In this document: positions 7,051-58,678 of the stretch, piece by piece
How the letters are laid out: every line of letters begins with the position of its first letter
How positions within the stretch are numbered: position 1 is the first letter of the stretch
DNA from: Candidatus Jettenia caeni
GTDB taxonomy: Bacteria; Planctomycetota; Brocadiia; Brocadiales; Brocadiaceae
Length of the DNA stretch: 64,000 bases
NCBI GenBank assembly: GCA_000296795.1
Contig: BAFH01000003.1
Location: 1,116,401 to 1,180,400 of the forward strand
Direction: 5' to 3'
Notes under the pieces: generated by a model
Databases searched by the model: none
What the model saw: the letters and a program-made list of their open reading frames with translations, nothing else
Told to the model about the DNA's origin: nothing
Translations under genes and position numbers: made by a program

Positions 7051-7404
7051 GGGGGCGAAAGGATTCGACCGGATACGTTGAGGTATAGGCGGCGTATTGA
7101 GGTTGTCAGGCGGCCTCATTAAAAACCTGGCAAAATGATTTAAATGCCGAATATCCAATGGCAATGGCTGCTTAAGTGTAGCCACGTTTAATTAACCTTA
7201 CCTGCGAGATTAATTAAACGACAACGAGCAGGATAGTTTAGTTCCTGTGCTCGGTGGGAACTAAGCGAACCTTTAAACGGAGCTAGTCATGAGAAATCCT
7301 GTCTATTGGAGTTTTTAATGGCGAAATTAAAAAATAGACTATGTACGTAGAAACCTATGCTGAAATATCCAGGGACGCGGGTTCAATTCCCGCCGCCTCC
7401 ACCA
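7051..7404 (+). ncRNA. ssrA: tmRNA (transfer-messenger RNA)
   Basis: The RNA rescues stalled ribosomes and tags the unfinished protein. The 5' end GGGGGCGAAAGGATTCGACC is the classic tmRNA start. Its first seven bases pair with CGCCTCC before the encoded ACCA at 7401-7404, and the T-arm GGGTTCAATTCCC precedes that. The tag frame ends at TAA 7173-7175 and reads ...NDLNAEYPMAMAA, ending in the Ala-Ala expected for ClpXP recognition. The resume codon is not certain: in the frame of the stop, the codon before AAT-GAT is CAA, not the common GCA, which is present one base out of frame. Confidence 0.95.
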
Positions 7405-14076: not shown

Positions 14077-14787
14077 TTATTTCTTTTTAGTACTTACAGT
14101 TTTTGCTTCTTCCTCTGCAAGAATAGTATCATATAAAAATGCGGCGATGATACTACCTGCAATTGGACCAATCCACCAGACATAGTGATGGGTAAATTGG
14201 CCTGATGCGAGAGCCGGACCAAAGGAGCGTGCAGGGTTCATTACCCCGCCGCTGATAGGACCTCCTATTAAGACGCCGAATAGTACGACCAGGCCTATTG
14301 CCAATCCGGCAAATCCGCTATATGCCCTTTTATCAAGAACTGTTCCACAGAATGTTAGAACGAGCAAGAAGCTAATAATGGATTCCATAATAATACCTTG
14401 AAGAACAGAAACTTCATTTCCCAAAGTACTTGTACCTAAATAAACCGTGTACAGCGCTTCGGGAAATAATATTTTTAATGCAAAACCTGCTAATGAAGCG
14501 CCGAGGATTTGCGATAGTATATACTTAATTGCGGTATCCGGATTTATTCTTCTGGTGACCCAATGAGCAATGGTAATTGCTGGATTGATATGCGCGCCTG
14601 AAACATAACTAATGGCATAAATTACTGAGGTTGTTGCCAGACCAAAAGCAATCGAAATTCCTAAAATACCTAAACCCTGTCCACTGCTTTTTCTCAGATA
14701 ATAATCTGTGCATACCGCACCGGCTGCAATAAAAACAAGGGTAAATGTACCTAAAAATTCTGCAACATATTTTTTGAATGCATCCAT
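14077..14787 (-). CDS. Aquaporin/glycerol facilitator (MIP family)
   Basis: The 236-residue six-helix channel moves water or small neutral solutes across the membrane. Both pore NPA motifs are present: HINPA (NPA 68-70) and MNPARS (NPA 184-186) followed by the selectivity-filter Arg187. Length and spacing fit the AqpZ-type branch, but I cannot tell water from glycerol specificity by eye. It begins at an ATG with a CAGGAGA ribosome site nearby. It is monocistronic and converges with the coiled-coil gene. Confidence 0.93.
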   Translation of the reverse strand: MDAFKKYVAEFLGTFTLVFIAAGAVCTDYYLRKSSGQGLGILGISIAFGLATTSVIYAISYVSGAHINPAITIAHWVTRRINPDTAIKYILSQILGASLAGFALKILFPEALYTVYLGTSTLGNEVSVLQGIIMESIISFLLVLTFCGTVLDKRAYSGFAGLAIGLVVLFGVLIGGPISGGVMNPARSFGPALASGQFTHHYVWWIGPIAGSIIAAFLYDTILAEEEAKTVSTKKK

Positions 14788-14890
14788 CGATTTCTCCTGA
14801 TTGTTTTAAAGATATTGTTCAATGGAAATGTTAGATGAATTTAATAACTTTCCCCTGCAACCCTGAAGGTGCAGGTTATAGTGTCTAACA

Positions 14891-14986
14891 GATGAAACCG
14901 AACAGAATGGACTATGAATAATTATACCATCACGGACAAACAAGTTTGTCCGTGCCACCCGGTATAAACTACTGTTCGGTTTCATC
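14891..14986. repeat. Nested inverted-repeat element (MITE-like)
   Basis: A perfect 15-bp inverted repeat, GATGAAACCGAACAG (14891-14905) and CTGTTCGGTTTCATC (14972-14986), encloses a second palindrome with arms CACGGACAAAC (14931-14941) and GTTTGTCCGTG (14944-14954). The inner palindrome recurs exactly at 42909-42932, and a half copy of the outer arm recurs at 51649-51661. The element sits between aquaporin and cca, and could be a small non-autonomous mobile element. Confidence 0.7.
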
Positions 14987-15090
14987 CCTTTAATACTGTA
15001 ATTGAGTACTTCGATCATGGAATTTTCCGACATTCATTATAGTAAAGAAAGCAACTGCTTATACAGAGAATGAGGAAATTTGTCAAGCAT

Positions 15091-16395
15091 TTATTTCATG
15101 AATAACTCTTTTACCCTTTCAATAGCTGCTTCCTTTGTTGTGAGATTTCCGTCAAGTTGTTCATCCTCTATTTTCGTTAAAATCTCTTTAAATAAAGGAC
15201 CTGGCTGTAGTCCCATTGCTATGAGATCATGTCCTGTTATAAGAGGTTCCGGTTTAACCTCCTCACGGCTCAATTTCTGAAACATCTCCTGACAGTAATC
15301 GTAATCTGACAGATCGCCACTGCTGGCAAGTGCATCGGCACGGCATAATTCCGCCAATTCCGGATAGCCTTCCTCTGCAAATAGTCTCTTCAGCTTGTTA
15401 AGCCGCATCTTTTGGGCATCCTTAAAGCAAAGGTGTTTCAAAACGAGCCAGCGAATCCGTTCCTTATCGTCTGTAGAGGTTTTTAACCGATCACAAATTT
15501 CGGTTGCCATATCTGCCCCTACTTTCTCGTGCAGATTGAATCGGATTCGATCTGTTACCGTAAAAGTAACGGCCTTACCGATATCGTGCAACAGTACTCC
15601 CATGGCTAGTGTCCATGATGGGTTTTCCATCTTGGATAAAGCTAGCAAAGTATGGATAAACACATCGCCCTCGGGGTGAAAATTTTCCGGCTGTTGTACA
15701 CCTCTGGTATTGGATACCTCCGGTAATATTTCTTGTAAAAGATGAAGCTCTTCCAGGAGTTTGATGCCGATATGGGGATTAGGACCGGTTATTATTTTTT
15801 CTAATTCTTCCCGTATGCGTTCTGCGCTGACCATGTGAATTTGCGGCGCAAGCTGCATAATTGCCTGTTGTGTATCTTTATGGATGGAGAAATGAAAGCG
15901 GCACGCAAATCGGGCGGCCCGTATCATGCGTAACTTATCTTCGGTAAATCGTTCGATAGGATCTCCAATAGTGCGAACAATCCCTGCCTCGATATCTTTT
16001 CGCCCGCCAACATAATCAAGTATCTCATCTTTTACCGGATCATAGAGGAGACCATTTATAGTAAAATCTCTTCGTTTTACATCGTTTTCGGGAGTACTGA
16101 AGCTTATCCGGTCGGGATGGCGTCCGTCGCTGTATGAGTCCTCCGTGCGGAAGGTTGCTACTTCAAAATTATGTCCTTCTTTAACGACAATAACAACGCC
16201 AAATTGTATTCCTACGGGAATGGTTTTCTGAAAGATTCTTATAACATCGTGAGGCATGGCATCCGTGGCAATATCGTAATCAAAAGACTCCTTGCCCATA
16301 ATCATATCGCGTACACATCCGCCCGCAAGAAAGGCCTTATAGCCATGTTTCTGCAAAGTTTGTACGATTTGAACAGCATATTGTTTGATGGTCAT
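15091..16395 (-). CDS. cca: CCA-adding tRNA nucleotidyltransferase with HD domain
   Basis: The 434-residue enzyme adds or repairs the CCA end of tRNAs, or is the related poly(A) polymerase. The nucleotidyltransferase core has GGCVRDMIMG (25-34) and the metal-binding D39/D41 in FDYDIAT. The RRDFTINGLLYD and ERIREELEKI segments of the class II family follow. An HD domain starts near residue 248, with H270-D271 in VLLHDIGKA, giving possible phosphohydrolase activity. The usual plain CCA-adding assignment fits the length; telling it from PcnB needs a tree. It lies upstream of aquaporin on the same strand, separated by a repeat. Confidence 0.9.
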   Translation of the reverse strand: MTIKQYAVQIVQTLQKHGYKAFLAGGCVRDMIMGKESFDYDIATDAMPHDVIRIFQKTIPVGIQFGVVIVVKEGHNFEVATFRTEDSYSDGRHPDRISFSTPENDVKRRDFTINGLLYDPVKDEILDYVGGRKDIEAGIVRTIGDPIERFTEDKLRMIRAARFACRFHFSIHKDTQQAIMQLAPQIHMVSAERIREELEKIITGPNPHIGIKLLEELHLLQEILPEVSNTRGVQQPENFHPEGDVFIHTLLALSKMENPSWTLAMGVLLHDIGKAVTFTVTDRIRFNLHEKVGADMATEICDRLKTSTDDKERIRWLVLKHLCFKDAQKMRLNKLKRLFAEEGYPELAELCRADALASSGDLSDYDYCQEMFQKLSREEVKPEPLITGHDLIAMGLQPGPLFKEILTKIEDEQLDGNLTTKEAAIERVKELFMK

Positions 16396-42742: not shown

Positions 42743-43199
42743 GGAGCTTAGAGTAAAAGATATAAAAGTATATAAATCATGATAAGATTCGGTTTTATTT
42801 TTGGATTACTATAGGTTTTTGAAAAATAACCCTATAGGGATATATGCGCTACCTTAAGAGGTAAAATACATCTTACCTTGTGACTATAACCGCACCTCCC
42901 AGGTTGAACACGGACAAACAAGTTTGTCCGTGCCACCCCATAACTCGTAACACGATAGTCTTTTGAAAAACAACCCCATAGGGGTGAAATGTTTATAGAA
43001 ATTTCTGTTCAGCAACAGATCTAGATAAAGATATATTGCTTTCACCTGTTGTTTTCAGAACATATCCGGGGAATTGTATCAATTCATTATCCTTCTGGAA
43101 TAAAGTCTGTGTACCGGGAATTTTTATTGACAATTTATTTTACTAAAGTTAGTATGTGATCACTTACATACCATAAAGATTAAAAAAATAAGTTTGTTT
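42743..43199. repeat. Repeat-bearing intergenic region before the efflux operon
   Basis: Two imperfect copies of TTTTGAAAAAnAACCCnATAGGG lie at 42817-42839 and 42961-42982, each ending in a small palindrome (CCCTATAGGG; CCCCATAGGGG). Between them at 42909-42932 is the palindrome with arms CACGGACAAAC and GTTTGTCCGTG, identical to the one at 14931-14954 and followed by the same CCACCC. No gene is seen. The right end holds the promoter and operator of the tetR gene. Confidence 0.65.
43127..43171 (+). promoter_or_regulatory. Promoter and TetR-type operator of the efflux operon
   Basis: TTGACA (43127-43132) and TAGTAT (43150-43155) are 17 bases apart. An inverted repeat GTATGT (43152-43157) and ACATAC (43166-43171) with an eight-base centre overlaps the -10 box. 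This position suits autorepression by the TetR-like regulator encoded next. Confidence 0.55.
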
Positions 43200-49999: not shown

Positions 50000-51619
50000 A
50001 TGATAAAAAAAATTACCAAAGACAGGAATCCTTACCGTAAAATATTCTTTTTAGCCAGTACCTTATTTCTGATTTTATCTTATGGCGCTTTTTCCTTTGG
50101 CGAAGAAGATCAAACGACGGTACAGATACCTTCTGCAATATCACCGGAAAATACTATAGAAATAGTTGCAAATCTAAAGTCTCTTAGTCTTGGTGTAAGA
50201 GAAAGTATTCTTTATGCATTGCGCAATAATTTTGATATCGAATTATCAAGATTGAATTCAGACTTAAGTGATTATGATATTACTATAGAAAAAGCAAGGT
50301 ACGACCCTGTCATGGCGTTAACCGGTACTATTGAAAATAATGATACCCCGATTAATAGTCAATTGGTTGGCGGCTTTGGAACAACAGCCTTTACTCCTTT
50401 TATTCAACGGGGAAGAACAGCGAACGCCGTGATTCAATCTCTCATCCCTACAGGTGCAACCCTGGCTTTAGAGTATAACATATTTAGAGATTTTGTCGAT
50501 CCCAACCGTTTCCGGTTCTTAAATCCATCCGTTACCAACTTCCTTGAGGCAAGGATTACACAACCTTTATTAAAAGGCGCTGGCTGGTTTTATAACAGGA
50601 GCCTTATTTATATCGCCCGAAATAATAAAAAGATTTCCCTTGCTCAATTTAAAACTACGGCAATAGAGGTCTCTAATTCTATTCAGGAAGCATATTGGAA
50701 TTTTGTTAAGGCATTGGAGGATTTAAAAGTAGCACAAAAATCTCTGGAACGTGCAGAAGATTTATTGAGAAAGAATAAAATACAAGTAGAAGCGGGTACC
50801 CTTGCACCAATTGAGATTATCGATGCAGAAGCCGGGGTAGCATCGAGGGTTGAGGCAGTAATTTCTGCGGAGAATGCTATTAAGGATAGTGAAGACGAAC
50901 TCAAAAGAATTATGAATCTGGAAAATAACGAGATTATTTCGGATGCTACTATTATTCCTATTGACGAGCCAGGTTTTGAGCCGAAAAAAATTGAATTAAA
51001 GGATGCGATTAAGACAGCTATGGAGAGGCGTCCTGAATTATATGAACTTCAACTCAGGGTTGAAAATGCAGGTATGCAGACCAGAAGACGAAAGAACGAA
51101 TTATATCCACAATTAGATTTTACCGGAGGAGTGCGATACACAGGTCTTGGGGAGGATGTAGATGATGCCAATTCTTCCGCAGTCTCTGAGGACTTTCAGG
51201 GTGAATTTTTTGGACTTTCCCTGTCAATTCCTATTGGGAACCGGTCAGCGAGGAGCGAATATAATAAATCAAAAATCGAGAAACGACAAGCTCACATGAA
51301 TGTTAAAAAAAAGGAATTAGATATTGTCGTAGAGGTGCGGGAGGCCGTTCGGGATGTGATAACAAATAGAGGACGGGTTAATGCTACAAGGAAATCCAGG
51401 GAATTGGCGCAAGAGAGGTTAGAATCTGAAGAGAAGAAATTTAGTGTGGGCAGAACAACAAGTCTGGAAGTATTACGTGCGCAGGAAGATTTGGCAACTG
51501 CGGAAGGTAATGCGGCAAAAGCAATTGTCGACTATGAGATATCTCTCGGTAATTTAGAAAAGGCTAAAGGAACGATCCTCGATGCTTATAATATCATGTT
51601 GGAAGAAGAAATTATGTAA
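50000..51619 (+). CDS. TolC-family outer-membrane channel
   Basis: The 539-residue exported protein has a signal segment (about residues 14-34, ...LFLILSYGAFSFGEE). Two OEP repeats of long helices alternate with short beta strands, as in TolC; QARITQPLLKGAGW-like, SIQEAYWNFVKALEDLKVAQ and the second-half LRAQEDLATAEGNAAKAIVD show this. It forms the outer-membrane duct for efflux. It lies 12 bases after folE and two genes after the RND pump, which has no channel of its own beside it, so it may serve that pump. Confidence 0.9.
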   Translation: MIKKITKDRNPYRKIFFLASTLFLILSYGAFSFGEEDQTTVQIPSAISPENTIEIVANLKSLSLGVRESILYALRNNFDIELSRLNSDLSDYDITIEKARYDPVMALTGTIENNDTPINSQLVGGFGTTAFTPFIQRGRTANAVIQSLIPTGATLALEYNIFRDFVDPNRFRFLNPSVTNFLEARITQPLLKGAGWFYNRSLIYIARNNKKISLAQFKTTAIEVSNSIQEAYWNFVKALEDLKVAQKSLERAEDLLRKNKIQVEAGTLAPIEIIDAEAGVASRVEAVISAENAIKDSEDELKRIMNLENNEIISDATIIPIDEPGFEPKKIELKDAIKTAMERRPELYELQLRVENAGMQTRRRKNELYPQLDFTGGVRYTGLGEDVDDANSSAVSEDFQGEFFGLSLSIPIGNRSARSEYNKSKIEKRQAHMNVKKKELDIVVEVREAVRDVITNRGRVNATRKSRELAQERLESEEKKFSVGRTTSLEVLRAQEDLATAEGNAAKAIVDYEISLGNLEKAKGTILDAYNIMLEEEIM

Positions 51620-54242
<2,623 letters not shown>

Positions 54243-54243
54243 C

Positions 54244-54552
54244 ATGGTTAAGAATAAAAAAGAAAAATATAGCCACGGAGAAGAATTTAGCAAAAAGGTA
54301 GGAATAAAAGAATCGCGCAGGATAAAGGCCCGGCAGAAGAAAGGGTTTAGTATTCTCTATGGATTAAGTATGTTTGGTATGGTTGGTTGGTCGGTAACTA
54401 TTCCAACCATAATTCTTACCCTAATCGGAATCTGGCTGGATAGAAAGTGGCCTGGCAGATTTTCATGGACCCTTACGCTCATTGTCATGGGAGTAATCCT
54501 TGGATGTCTGAATGCATGGTATTGGGTAAGAAAGGAGAGCCGGGGCGATTGA
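54244..54552 (+). CDS. atpQ: N-ATPase accessory subunit AtpQ
   Basis: The 102-residue protein has a basic N terminus (about 1-36) and two membrane helices (about 42-66 and 74-96) with GWSVTIPTIILTLIGIWLDR. It is related to AtpZ/AtpI-type assembly helpers. In N-ATPase operons atpQ sits between atpC and atpR. Its job is unclear; assembly of the c ring or Mg2+ handling have been proposed for related proteins. It is separated from atpR here by an unusual 370-base insertion. Confidence 0.85.
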   Translation: MVKNKKEKYSHGEEFSKKVGIKESRRIKARQKKGFSILYGLSMFGMVGWSVTIPTIILTLIGIWLDRKWPGRFSWTLTLIVMGVILGCLNAWYWVRKESRGD

Positions 54553-54925
54553 GTTTATATAGATAACGTTATCATAATTATGGTATATCCTGATTTAACA
54601 TTGAGGAATTTCAATTATGTAGGGCAATCCTTTAGGGTTGTCTGGCAAGGCTAAAGCCTCGCCCTGCATATGATCTATGTAACTGCAGAGTGAGAGAACA
54701 ATGACCAGAGGGTGTTTCTATTTAAGTTACTTATAGATGGTATTGTAAACCTAATGCAACGTTTAGAAAATCCAAACAGTGGCTCTTATTTCGATCTGCT
54801 TGTTTTGCTTTGCTCGTTCCCAAACCATGTCTTCATGAAAATGGGAATGAGTTTAGGATTAAGCAGAAAAATCTCTGTCAAAGACAGCCTCTTAAAAGTG
54901 TAGAAAATGTAAAGAAGGCACAGGT
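54553..54925. repeat. Repeat-bearing insertion inside the N-ATPase operon
   Basis: The arms GTAGGGC (54619-54625) and GCCCTGC (54661-54667), enclosing AATCCTTTAGGGTTGTCTGG and AAGGCTAAAGCCTC, are a longer version of the repeat at 49303-49330. Further on, CTCGTTCCCA (54813-54822) and TGGGAATGAG (54842-54851) make another imperfect palindrome. A 63-codon frame at 54712-54903 matches nothing. Other genes of this operon are spaced by less than 60 bases, so this looks like inserted DNA. Confidence 0.6.
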
Positions 54926-55234
54926 ATGGCAAATGATATTATTTTTATCGTATTGTCTCTTGCCAATGGTATTGGACTGAGCATACTGTATTTTGGAGGT
55001 CTTTGGTTAACGGTACAGGTTCTCCCTGTATCGGGTCGCCCTGCATTTTTTATGGCAGGTAGTTTTCTTATGCGTATTGCAGCTATCTTGTGTGGTCTTT
55101 ATGTTATTATTCCTCATGGTGAATGGAAATCTTTCTTGGCTTTCATGCTGGGGTTTCTTTTCATGCGGATTGTTTTGATCCAACGATTACAATCACGGCA
55201 TATTAATTTTAGACTTTTACTAAAGAAAAGATAA
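54926..55234 (+). CDS. atpR: N-ATPase accessory membrane subunit AtpR
   Basis: The 102-residue protein has three membrane helices (about 5-30, 40-60 and 68-88). It keeps arginines within or next to helices (SFLMRIAAILCGLYV and FLFMRIVLIQRL), which is the mark of AtpR, thought to contact the c-ring carboxylate during assembly. It is unique to N-type operons, so its presence fixes the ATPase type. It is two bases upstream of atpB. Confidence 0.88.
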   Translation: MANDIIFIVLSLANGIGLSILYFGGLWLTVQVLPVSGRPAFFMAGSFLMRIAAILCGLYVIIPHGEWKSFLAFMLGFLFMRIVLIQRLQSRHINFRLLLKKR

Positions 55235-55236
55235 TT

Positions 55237-55914
55237 ATGGAAATAAGTCCTGACTCTGTCACGATTTTTACCTGGGGATATTTTCGTATCAACGCCACCA
55301 TCGTATATACCTGGGTAGTAATGGTCTTATTGATCATTGTTTCCCTCTTAGTAACTCAAAATCTTTCTGCAGGATTTGCATTATCCCGCTGGCAGAACTT
55401 TCTCGAGACCATTGTAGATTCTATGAGGAACCAGATTCGTGAAATTATTCGCCAGAGACCGGAGCCGTACTTATCTTTCATAGGTACATTGTTTCTGTTT
55501 ATCTCGATTTCAAACTTTCTCAGCATTGTGCCTGGATATCATCCTCCAACAAGTTCGTTTTCGACTACAGCAGCATTAGCTATTTGTGTGTTTTTTGCGG
55601 TTCCCTTTTTCAGTATTACACAATCAGGACTTGCAGGGTATCTGAAGTATTATATAAAACCTTCAATATTCATGCTTCCCTTTAATATTCTCGGGGAAAT
55701 TTCACATACGCTGACACTCGCAATCCGGCTATTCGGGAACATAATGAGCGGAACCTTAATCGGTGCAATATTGATTTCAGTTATACCTTTTTTTATTCCG
55801 GCAGTGATGGAGGTATTAGAGTTATTAATTGGACAAATTCAAGCCTATATCTTTGCTATCCTTGCTGCTGTATATATTGCATCTGCGACCCGTGCTGGCC
55901 GCAACGAGGGATGA
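55237..55914 (+). CDS. atpB: N-ATPase a subunit (ion channel)
   Basis: The 225-residue membrane subunit provides the half-channels next to the c ring. The essential arginine is R164 in LAIRLFGNIMSG. It has five or six hydrophobic helices and ends with IFAILAAVYIASATR. It is shorter than the usual E. coli-type a subunit (about 270), as is normal for N-ATPases. It is coupled with atpR, and atpE follows by 33 bases with a good AAAGGAG site. Confidence 0.95.
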   Translation: MEISPDSVTIFTWGYFRINATIVYTWVVMVLLIIVSLLVTQNLSAGFALSRWQNFLETIVDSMRNQIREIIRQRPEPYLSFIGTLFLFISISNFLSIVPGYHPPTSSFSTTAALAICVFFAVPFFSITQSGLAGYLKYYIKPSIFMLPFNILGEISHTLTLAIRLFGNIMSGTLIGAILISVIPFFIPAVMEVLELLIGQIQAYIFAILAAVYIASATRAGRNEG

Positions 55915-55947
55915 TCAGGAAGGATTAAACAGAAAGGAGATCGTAAC

Positions 55948-56226
55948 ATGGAAATGAAAGATATTGTTAGTTTAGCTTCAATCATTATTGCAGGACTTAC
56001 TATTGCTATTGGTTCGATTGGTCCTGCACTGGGAGAAGGACGGGCTTTAGCTCAGGCATTGAGTTCCATTGCGCAACAACCAGACGAGGCTAGTACCATT
56101 ACCCGAACGTTATTTGTTGGTTTGGCAATGATAGAATCCGTTGCTATTTATTGCTTTGTTATTTCTGTAATTCTTATTTTTGCCAACCCATTTTGGAATC
56201 ATGTAGTCTCGCAGGCGGGAAAATAG
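55948..56226 (+). CDS. atpE: N-ATPase c subunit (rotor ring)
   Basis: The 92-residue hairpin forms the ion-carrying ring. The outer helix has E63-S64...Y68 (MIESVAIY), the same pattern as the Na+-binding E65-S66-Y70 of the Ilyobacter ring. The inner helix has E30 in GPALGEG at the place of its Q32, so two carboxylates may face the site. The polar loop is QQP instead of RQP. Whether it carries Na+ or H+ cannot be settled by sequence; the double carboxylate could favour H+. The ribosome site is AAAGGAG. Confidence 0.95.
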   Translation: MEMKDIVSLASIIIAGLTIAIGSIGPALGEGRALAQALSSIAQQPDEASTITRTLFVGLAMIESVAIYCFVISVILIFANPFWNHVVSQAGK

Positions 56227-56229
56227 CCT

Positions 56230-57054
56230 ATGCAGATTGATGTACTCACGTTAATAGCGCAAATAATCAATTTTGTAATACTGGTGGTCCTGCTAAAGTA
56301 CTTTCTGTATAACCGGATTGTTAAGGTTATGGATGAACGTAAAGAGAAAATTATTTCGCAGTTAAAAGACGCAGACCAGAAGAAACAGGAGGCGGAGCAG
56401 GAAGCTGAATCTTATCGGAAAAAACTCAAAGAGCTGGATGATAAATACGAAGAAATGCTTTCAAAAGCTCATGAAGAGGTAGAATCTCAGCGAAAAGAAT
56501 TACTGAAAAAGGCTCATGGTGAGATAAGGGAAGCCCAGGTTAAGTGGTATGAGGCAATTCAGCATGAGAGACAATTATTCATGAACGACATCCGCCAACA
56601 AGCGGGCAAAGAGGTTTGTGCTGTTGCACGTCGCGCCCTGGCAGATTTGGCAGATGCCGATCTTGGGCGGCAGATAATTGACTTCTTTATCAAAAAAATC
56701 CAAAGGTTGGATAAACAGGAAAGAGATACCCTGAGAAGATCTATACAGGGATCGAAAAAGTATGAAATTGATATAAACAGTGCATTTGAGATTCCACAGG
56801 AAATGCGCCAAAAAATGATACATGAAATACAAAAACAAATTACCAGTAATAGTAATGTGCGGTTTACGACATCGCCTAACCTGATCTGTGGAATAGAACT
56901 AAAAGTGGATGGACATAAAATTTCCTGGAATCTGGAGAATTACTTACGTGATCTGGAAGATAATGTAACCAATGCTATCGAAAGAAAAGTAAGGGAAAAT
57001 CAAGAAAATATGTATCAGGAAAAGCAAAATGGAAAACGCCAGGAAAAAGAATGA
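56230..57054 (+). CDS. atpF: N-ATPase b subunit with delta-like C-terminal part
   Basis: The 274-residue protein has one membrane helix (about 5-27), then a long coiled-coil stalk (about 30-140). A C-terminal part (about 180-245) has NLICGIELKVDGHKISWNLE, which resembles the end of a delta subunit. Ordinary b is about 160 residues. As N-type operons lack atpH (delta), this fusion would supply that function. It lies three bases after atpE and 49 before atpA. Confidence 0.92.
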   Translation: MQIDVLTLIAQIINFVILVVLLKYFLYNRIVKVMDERKEKIISQLKDADQKKQEAEQEAESYRKKLKELDDKYEEMLSKAHEEVESQRKELLKKAHGEIREAQVKWYEAIQHERQLFMNDIRQQAGKEVCAVARRALADLADADLGRQIIDFFIKKIQRLDKQERDTLRRSIQGSKKYEIDINSAFEIPQEMRQKMIHEIQKQITSNSNVRFTTSPNLICGIELKVDGHKISWNLENYLRDLEDNVTNAIERKVRENQENMYQEKQNGKRQEKE

Positions 57055-57103
57055 ATGCAGGAGGGAAAAAGATCCTTTCAGATGAAGGAGATAAAAAACG
57101 AGG

Positions 57104-58678
57104 ATGGTGAACACGGGGAAGAATAAGAGAGAGCTGAAAACTGTTCTGGACGATACTTTTCAGGTTCTTAACGGAACACTTCGGGAGCACAAGGCCAAAC
57201 TCGAATCCCGGGAGACAGGCGCTATACATTTTATTGGCGAAGGCATTGCCCGGGTGAAAGGATTACCGGATGTTAAACTTAACGAACTCATTCGTTTTTC
57301 AGATAATAAAACAGGAATTGCATTCAATCTCGATCCGGAAGAAATTGGCATCGTTTTACTGGATGAGGCGCAGACTTTAAAAGCTGGTAGTGAAGTTTAT
57401 CGTACCGGCAGAGTTTTGGATACACCAGTAGGCGATGCTCTCCTTGGCCGTGTTGTTGATTCTCTGGGTCGTCCTCTGGATGAACGGGGACCATTACATG
57501 CTTCCCAGCGGCAGCCTATTGAACGGGAAGCTCCGGGAATTCTGGACCGTGCACCAGTAAGTGTTCCTCTGCAAACAGGAATTCTGGTAATTGATGCCCT
57601 GATTCCTATTGGAAGAGGTCAACGGGAATTAATTCTTGGCGATAGGCAAACTGGCAAAACTTCCATTGCAGTTAATGCTATAATCAATCAGAGGGATAAA
57701 GATGTTATTTGTGTTTATTGTTCAATAGGGCAGAAAATTTCCGGAGTCGCAAAGGTAATTGATGACTTACGTAAATACGGGGCAATGGAAAAATGTATTG
57801 TAGTAGTAGCTACCGGAGAGGATTCTCCGGGACTAAGATTTGCTGCTCCGTACGCCGCTACCTCTATGGCAGAATACTTTATGGAACAAGGGAAAGATGT
57901 CTTAATCGTATATGATGATTTATCCCATCATGCGCGTACGTATCGGGAGATCTCTTTGCTTCTTCGTAGACCTCCTGCCAGAGAGGCGTACCCTGGCGAT
58001 ATATTCTATATTCACTCGCGATTGCTTGAGCGTTCTACTCATCTGAGTAAGGAGTATGGTGGCGGTTCTCTTACTGCTTTGCCTATTGTTGAGACAGAAG
58101 CACAAAATATATCAGCATATATTCCAACGAATCTTATTTCTATTACTGATGGCCAAATTTATCTTTCTCCCGAGCTATTTCAAAAAGGTATTTTGCCTGC
58201 TCTTGATGCTGGGAAATCAGTTTCCCGCGTGGGAGGAAAAGCGCAATTATCAGCATACCATGAAATTGCCGGTAATTCGCGCCTGTCTTATTCTCAGTTT
58301 GAAGAATTAGAATCATTTGCGCGTTTTGGAACACGACTTGACGAAAGAACGCGAAAGATACTTGCGCGTGGTCAGCATATCCGTGAGATTTTGAAACAAT
58401 CGCCGTATGATTTACTATCGGCTCCTGAGCAGGTTGTTATCCTCTTGTCGGTGACACAAGGCCTCTTTGATAATGTCCCAATCGGTAAGATGAATGAGGT
58501 TAAAAAGGCTGTTCGAAAGGTGACTTTGGAAAAGCTGTCCGATATAGGGAAACGGATTCTGGCAGATGAAAAACTGAATAATGATGACAAAAAAGCAATA
58601 CTCGGTACGGTAGAAAAGACCATACAATCAGGTAATTATTCAAAAAAAGGAAAAGAGATCGGGAATGGAAACGTATGA
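57104..58678 (+). CDS. atpA: N-ATPase alpha subunit
   Basis: The 524-residue subunit of the catalytic hexamer has the P-loop GDRQTGKT (179-186), [16 protein letters not shown] and the late SRVGGKAQ segment with the arginine finger. The N terminus ([20 protein letters not shown]) is longer and lower in similarity than usual, as in other N-type alpha subunits. It overlaps the gamma gene by 14 bases. Confidence 0.95.

Follow-up and report, generated by a model that had tools for sequence, protein, structure and literature searches.

Introduction

Two kinds of short mobile repeat that bear on the locus studied here, IS630-type MITEs and REP palindromes mobilized by REP-associated tyrosine transposases (RAYTs), are each already known. 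According to the parts of PMC2229807 and PMC2817692 that deal with them, Correia/NEMIS of Neisseria and RUP of Streptococcus pneumoniae are IS630-type MITEs of about 100–200 bp that have terminal inverted repeats, 5'-TA termini and a TA target, and for RUP the supply of transposase by an IS630 element was proposed from shared ends. REP/RAYT systems likewise figure as known in part of the latter source (PMC2817692). A clear precedent for nesting is found in Anabaena variabilis, in which, as section 7 of PMC3733652 describes, dimers of GTAG-15 REPs lie inside TATAGGA...TCCTATA palindromes; by the account in that section, the palindrome is not found there without REPs.

The nested palindrome that we analyzed in Jettenia shares features with each of these systems. 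With Correia/NEMIS and RUP, as far as those partial descriptions go, it has in common the size class, terminal inverted repeats, TA termini and target and a link to IS630, but it differs in its end sequence and host and in carrying a RAYT-type REP as cargo, with other cargo in other subfamilies. As in REP/RAYT systems (REPs, BIMEs and REPINs), the inner unit is a short tagged palindrome, and pairs of REPs stand on both sides of a RAYT-family gene; however, the tag tetranucleotide is GTGG, inside GGGTGG, instead of the usual conserved GTAG at one end, the stem is longer (11 bp), and half of the near-perfect Jettenia REPs lie inside a DDE-type MITE. Excerpted accounts of other hosts also mention GTGG, in the majority of the GTAG-20 elements of O. 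terrae and at the start of some Pseudomonas REPs (GTGG or TGTGG). The A. variabilis palindrome, in the section cited, resembles ours in that REPs lie within a longer palindrome that starts with TATAG and finishes with CTATA, but it holds REP dimers where the Jettenia MITE holds a single REP; moreover, the Jettenia shell also occurs with other cargo, and a likely transposase and empty sites are identified for it. The open-licence literature was searched for such repeats in anammox bacteria and for nested MITE/REP elements, and none of the papers listed describes them. What is added here is a likely transposase for each layer, precise insertions of the whole block, shells that carry alternative cargo and a locus at which the cargo was apparently exchanged.

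Results

Extent and setting of the element

The window, G000:C3:1116401-1180400, is a stretch of 64,000 nucleotides; the genome to which it belongs, hereafter the own genome, measures 4.09 Mb and is assembled in four contigs. At 14891-14986, the preliminary description had recorded a perfect 15-bp outer repeat enclosing a palindrome with 11-bp arms. Both are present and the nesting stands, but the element is larger than the span first given, as in aligned flanks of arm matches the conserved MITE end extends outward to TATAGT (Table 1). Its limits come from a search of 39 genomes (the own one counted) with the DNA of window positions 14300-15600. In two sisters of the same genus, G001 and G002, query positions 1-579 and 700-1301 matched with an overlap of 2 bases in the sister, that is, at an empty site with a single TA, which sets the element at 14879-14998 with a duplicated TA. 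Identity in the flanks was 97.5-97.8% for G001 and 94.9-95.7% for G002. Because both sisters lack the element, the simplest reading is that it was inserted in the own lineage.

Table 1. Positions of the composite element, its parts and related copies in the window
Feature	Position	Strand	Remarks
Composite MITE, IS630/Tc1-mariner type (very probable), REP inside	14879..14998	.	120 bp excluding duplicated TA; G001 and G002 lack exactly this block; ends common to IS630-family element
TA target-site duplication, left copy	14877..14878	.	2-base overlap of two sister matches
TA target-site duplication, right copy	14999..15000	.	2-base overlap of two sister matches
Left terminal inverted repeat including TA, TATAGT-N10-TGAAACCGAACA	14877..14904	+	
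Right terminal inverted repeat including TA	14973..15000	-	22/28 positions like left
Inner REP: tag GGGTGG and palindrome CACGGACAAAC-TT-GTTTGTCCGTG	14931..14960	-	
Middle 7-bp arm pair around REP: TTATACC 14922-14928 / GGTATAA 14961-14967	14922..14967	.	
Solitary REP, identical 30-mer, no MITE ends around	42909..42938	-	surrounding region also in G001
Decayed solitary MITE right end	42786..42813	-	95 bp before REP 42909-42938
Solitary MITE right end	51651..51678	-	G001 has ~2.1 kb of other sequence there

No listed open reading frame of at least 100 amino acids overlaps the element, and Rfam at gathering thresholds has no match there, its sole match being tmRNA at 7051-7404. The neighbors are two genes on the minus strand, a MIP-family gene (14077-14787) and a CCA/polyA-polymerase-like gene (15091-16395), past whose end the MITE stands. 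It could be supposed that the structure is not mobile at all but is a selected regulatory hairpin of these genes, such as a terminator, an RNA stabilizer or a promoter, as it lies between two same-strand genes, 91 bp before the start of the MIP-family gene, and has a strong predicted fold (-47 kcal/mol over 124 bases, a raw value without shuffle control). However, both sisters are without it at the same place and the genome has many further copies, so that we regard this explanation as very unlikely. An effect of the MITE on the expression of its neighbors is nevertheless possible.

Filled and empty sites of other composites

For eight further composites of the own genome, the flanks were joined and used as queries against G001 and G002 (one query was incomplete). 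Empty sites with a single TA were found for C3:968562 (in G002; the site in G001 holds ~170 bp unlike the MITE), C3:75569 (in both sisters, with a flank deletion in G001), C3:938646 and C4:627809 (in both) and C4:1014763 (in G001). The check for target-site duplication thus found TA duplicated and empty sites present in the sisters. Altogether, the 13 own composites comprise six that are empty in a sister, including that of the window, two that are shared, one that is apparently exchanged and four without assignment (C4:841724, no flank match; C4:839867, partial only; C4:199982 and C4:137196, outside the search). Those at C1:67284 and C4:11129 have counterparts in G001 within matching flanks (95.4% and 91.8%, respectively) and are therefore older. 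C4:841724 and C3:968562, in turn, share 96.6-97.9% identity, over 145-156 bp, with three copies that have different flanks in G001; as near-identical copies stand in unrelated flanks, the composite block appears to have been copied whole. G002 also has a composite, in its contig 11 (40027-40137).

Abundance of the ends and an IS630-family partner

In the own genome, 139 sites match the end pattern TATAGT-N10-TGAAACCGAACA at up to 3 mismatches, versus 8 for a reversed-pattern control. Four other genomes are similarly rich in ends (control in parentheses): G001 with 135 (9), G002 with 251 (11), G005 with 106 (3) and G012 with 80 (4). The remaining 34 of the 39 have 0 to 10 matches; some exceed their control slightly (G016, 6 versus 2; G019, 4 versus 1), and G022 has one perfect match. 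Copy number is thus far above the control and not at the chance level against which the preliminary description had set the family. Within the window, the 13-mer CTGTTCGGTTTCA taken by itself exceeds chance only mildly at 2 mismatches (4 versus a shuffle mean of 1.47; 4 of 100 shuffles reach 4).

Six DDE_3 matches were found in the own genome. One of them, C2:70386-71438, is a stop-free frame of 359 codons (351 if counted from the first ATG used), whose product matches the NCBIfam IS630 model NF033545 (E 1.3e-61), and the element that contains it (C2:70378-71532) has TATAGT-N10-TGAAACCGAAC at both ends, the same architecture as the MITE. By the search used, this is the single IS630 gene copy of the own genome. 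The other five loci were rejected as partners, as the two end parts were not seen together at the right spacing there (judged by eye). Three end pairs ~1.42 kb apart, considered as an autonomous element, were also rejected because they contain an IS110-family relic inserted in a MITE. These near-identical relics (C3:451478-452907, C4:398808-400238 and C4:1037898-1039328; 252 amino acids) are inserted in the GTCATTGCGAGG motif of a second MITE cargo, described below, in both orientations of the motif; their C-terminal part alone matches the IS110 model, below the cut-off. That the same shortened gene occurs in three copies suggests movement in trans.

Relatives of the IS630 gene with at least 69% identity were found only in the own genome, G002 and G005, all of which are end-rich (hypergeometric 0.001 for the 39 genomes, kinship ignored). 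The G005 relative is 85% identical and has the same ends; that of G002 has two stops, and no matching ends were found at its locus at up to 4 mismatches. In the end-rich G001 and G012 no close relative was found, and their copies should therefore be relics or depend on some other enzyme. Distant matches (23-27%) occur in G006, G011 and G030, and no such ends were seen at the loci in G011 and G030. Separately, locus L244 on C18 of G005 is an IS630 copy shortened to ~0.87 kb that kept both ends and lacks the middle of the gene, possibly a MITE in the making.

The inner REP and its RAYT

On sequence grounds, the inner unit, GGGTGGCACGGACAAAC-NN-GTTTGTCCGTG, belongs to a RAYT system as its REP, and its cleavage by a RAYT is predicted. 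With up to 3 mismatches, the palindrome occurs twice in the window (0.00 expected from shuffles) and at 30 places in the genome, 20 of them exact, with no control matches; at up to 1 mismatch there are 26 REPs, and again none in the controls. In all 24 whose flanks were examined, the GGGTGG tag is on one side. Several REPs were found at just one of the nine PF01797 loci in the own genome, C4:119432-119947, whose product scores 88.6 bits (cut-off 80) for the NCBIfam REP-associated tyrosine transposase. This gene lies between REP pairs, with GGGTGGCACTGACAAAC... facing ...GTTTGTCCGTGCCACC on each side, so that the suggested search for a REP-associated transposase was successful. As for the other PF01797 loci, seven have no REP (up to 3 mismatches, ~3.2 kb), and C1:47307-47666, which has one stop, has one REP-like copy that differs at 3 positions.

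When named genomes were scanned for exact matches to the 30-mer, with the centre left free, 90 stretches were obtained from hosts that include Brocadia, Jettenia, Loosdrechtia, other Planctomycetota, Nitrospirae, Desulfobacterales, Syntrophaceae and SAR324; Candidatus Jettenia ecosi, for example, has a REP at 40068-40097 of contig SULG01000011.1. The composite in contig 11 of G002 coincides with this REP, so that G002 probably represents this species and the own genome a relative in Jettenia. These stretches are at most 8 kb each, and one free of a RAYT is thus uninformative on the rest of its genome. Eight of them, from Brocadiaceae, a groundwater planctomycete and Desulfobacterales, encode a RAYT relative at 56-78% identity (that of L069 is a fragment); REP-like copies with up to 2 mismatches stand on both sides of it in every one of the eight. 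Across the 39 genomes, REPs are more numerous in the seven that have a RAYT match (Mann-Whitney 8e-5, kinship ignored). There are exceptions, in that REPs also occur in genomes without such a match (G025, 44; G017, 15; G005, 10; G013, 7). G025, of the same order (1.6 Mb, 77% complete), holds with its 44 near-perfect REPs the most of the 39 genomes and has no RAYT match at E 1e-20.

Regularity of the nesting

How the two repeats are combined was examined for 24 of the 26 REPs with up to 1 mismatch, using ends with up to 5 mismatches. Thirteen lie between two MITE ends, two beside one end and nine without an end within 150 bp. The same 13 composites were recovered at up to 4 mismatches, at which the end pattern gives 103 matches versus 1 for the control in 274,275 bases (at 5 mismatches, 127 versus 20). 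In all 13, the tag side of the REP is 45-46 bases from the MITE end, and the composite bodies align end to end across loci. No MITE shell of the same body without REP was found.

It is extremely improbable that this nesting arose by chance, with a REP having fallen into one MITE and the likeness of the composites being coincidental. Some overlap is indeed expected, as both repeat families are abundant, but of the 24 REPs examined, 13 are enclosed by a pair of ends at that constant spacing, reversed-pattern ends of equal laxity number just 20 in 274,275 bases, and the alignment of bodies between loci is also at odds with coincidence. The whole might instead be an unusually large REP or REPIN moved by the RAYT, with the outer arms as RAYT substrate, since a REP stands at its centre and a RAYT gene is present in the genome. 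However, the ends outnumber the REPs (139 versus 26), enclose other cargo too and bound an IS630-family gene, and the REPs next to the RAYT gene itself (C4:119388) showed no MITE end. Single-strand IS200/IS605-type enzymes, moreover, do not leave a TA duplication and DDE-type ends, and we thus consider this explanation highly unlikely. The earlier guess of a modular MITE/REP family is supported by the copy number, by the TA duplication with empty sites and by the REP-flanked RAYT; it is refined in that the two modules come from unrelated families: the shell is an IS630-type MITE, and its cargo is a RAYT-type REP.

Alternative cargo and an apparently exchanged locus

A second cargo, REP2, is an inverted pair, GTCATTGCGAGG...GAAGCAATC, which is found inside MITE end pairs and also outside them (for example, C3:798257-798488). 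Among 31 end pairs at most 420 bp apart in the examined sequence of the own genome, 13 enclose the REP, 13 enclose REP2, one both by lax match and four neither. At C3:1504648, both sisters hold a MITE of ~230 bp with REP2 cargo at the same TA where the own genome has a REP composite. The left end of that composite matches the resident sister end at 31 of 31 positions in G002 and 30 of 31 in G001, and the own REP2 MITEs at 27-30 of 31, versus just 21-25 of 31 for the twelve other composites with the inner REP (REP1). In the next 14 bases, it matches seven of those twelve at 13-14 positions. The simplest reading, at this one locus and from sequence comparison, would be that the cargo was replaced through an exchange inside the shared end, by recombination or gene conversion; a second insertion into the same TA is a less likely possibility.

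We tentatively suggest, although we consider it somewhat less than an even chance, that IS630-type MITE shells may be exchangeable carriers of palindromes of other systems, with cargo swapped within shared ends and REPs spread by a DDE transposase even without a RAYT. This reading is prompted by the finding that one shell family holds two main types of cargo, by the chimeric locus C3:1504648 and by G005, which has eight composite-like matches besides its REPs and no RAYT match.

Other copies in the window

The identical copy of the inner unit that had been reported at 42909-42938 is present as a 30-mer. At the place of the decayed end near it, G001 has ~294 additional bases with a left end and a decayed REP. 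A 29-nt repeat (42815-42843 and 42959-42987, 76% alike) around CCCTATAGGG and CCCCATAGGGG stands on both sides of this solitary REP. As to the half copy noted at about 51650, the outer arm is there (51650-51662), but it is really part of a solitary MITE end, which stands behind an outer-membrane-efflux gene. Window positions 50330-58318 are 99.7% identical to C2:845416-853400, near the end of contig C2 (853,441 bases), reflecting either a recent duplication or an assembly effect.

Discussion

The element is very probably a MITE of the IS630/Tc1-mariner type, a non-autonomous DNA transposon, with a REP inside it as a passenger. This explanation draws on its boundaries, the TA duplication, the empty sites in the sisters, the many copies of its ends, the IS630 gene with the same ends, the REP-flanked RAYT and the near-identical composites at unrelated sites. 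Against it stand the end-rich G001 and G012 with no close IS630 relative found, the G002 relative with its two stops and no matching ends at its locus, the single IS630 gene copy of the own genome, the failure to find a REP-free shell of the same body, and the REPs in genomes that lack a RAYT match. A REP would first have got into a MITE through its own RAYT system and would thereafter have been copied along with the MITE; the IS630 transposase would bind the 28-bp ends in trans, and the whole block would move by cut-and-paste into TA sites. The nested palindrome consists of two mobile repeats, one within the other, for each of which the genome holds a likely transposase gene, and the earlier guess is largely right.

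The locus provides a case of a repeat within a repeat with a likely transposase for each layer and precise filled and empty sites. REPs are usually tied to a RAYT. Half of the near-perfect REPs here lie in a MITE that is probably moved by another class of enzyme, which could help to explain REPs in genomes free of RAYTs. Cargo exchange, if it proves frequent, could allow short palindromes to move from one mobile family into another, unrelated one. Moreover, the pairs of filled and empty sites mark recent activity of repeats in slow-growing bacteria that probably belong to the anammox genus Jettenia.
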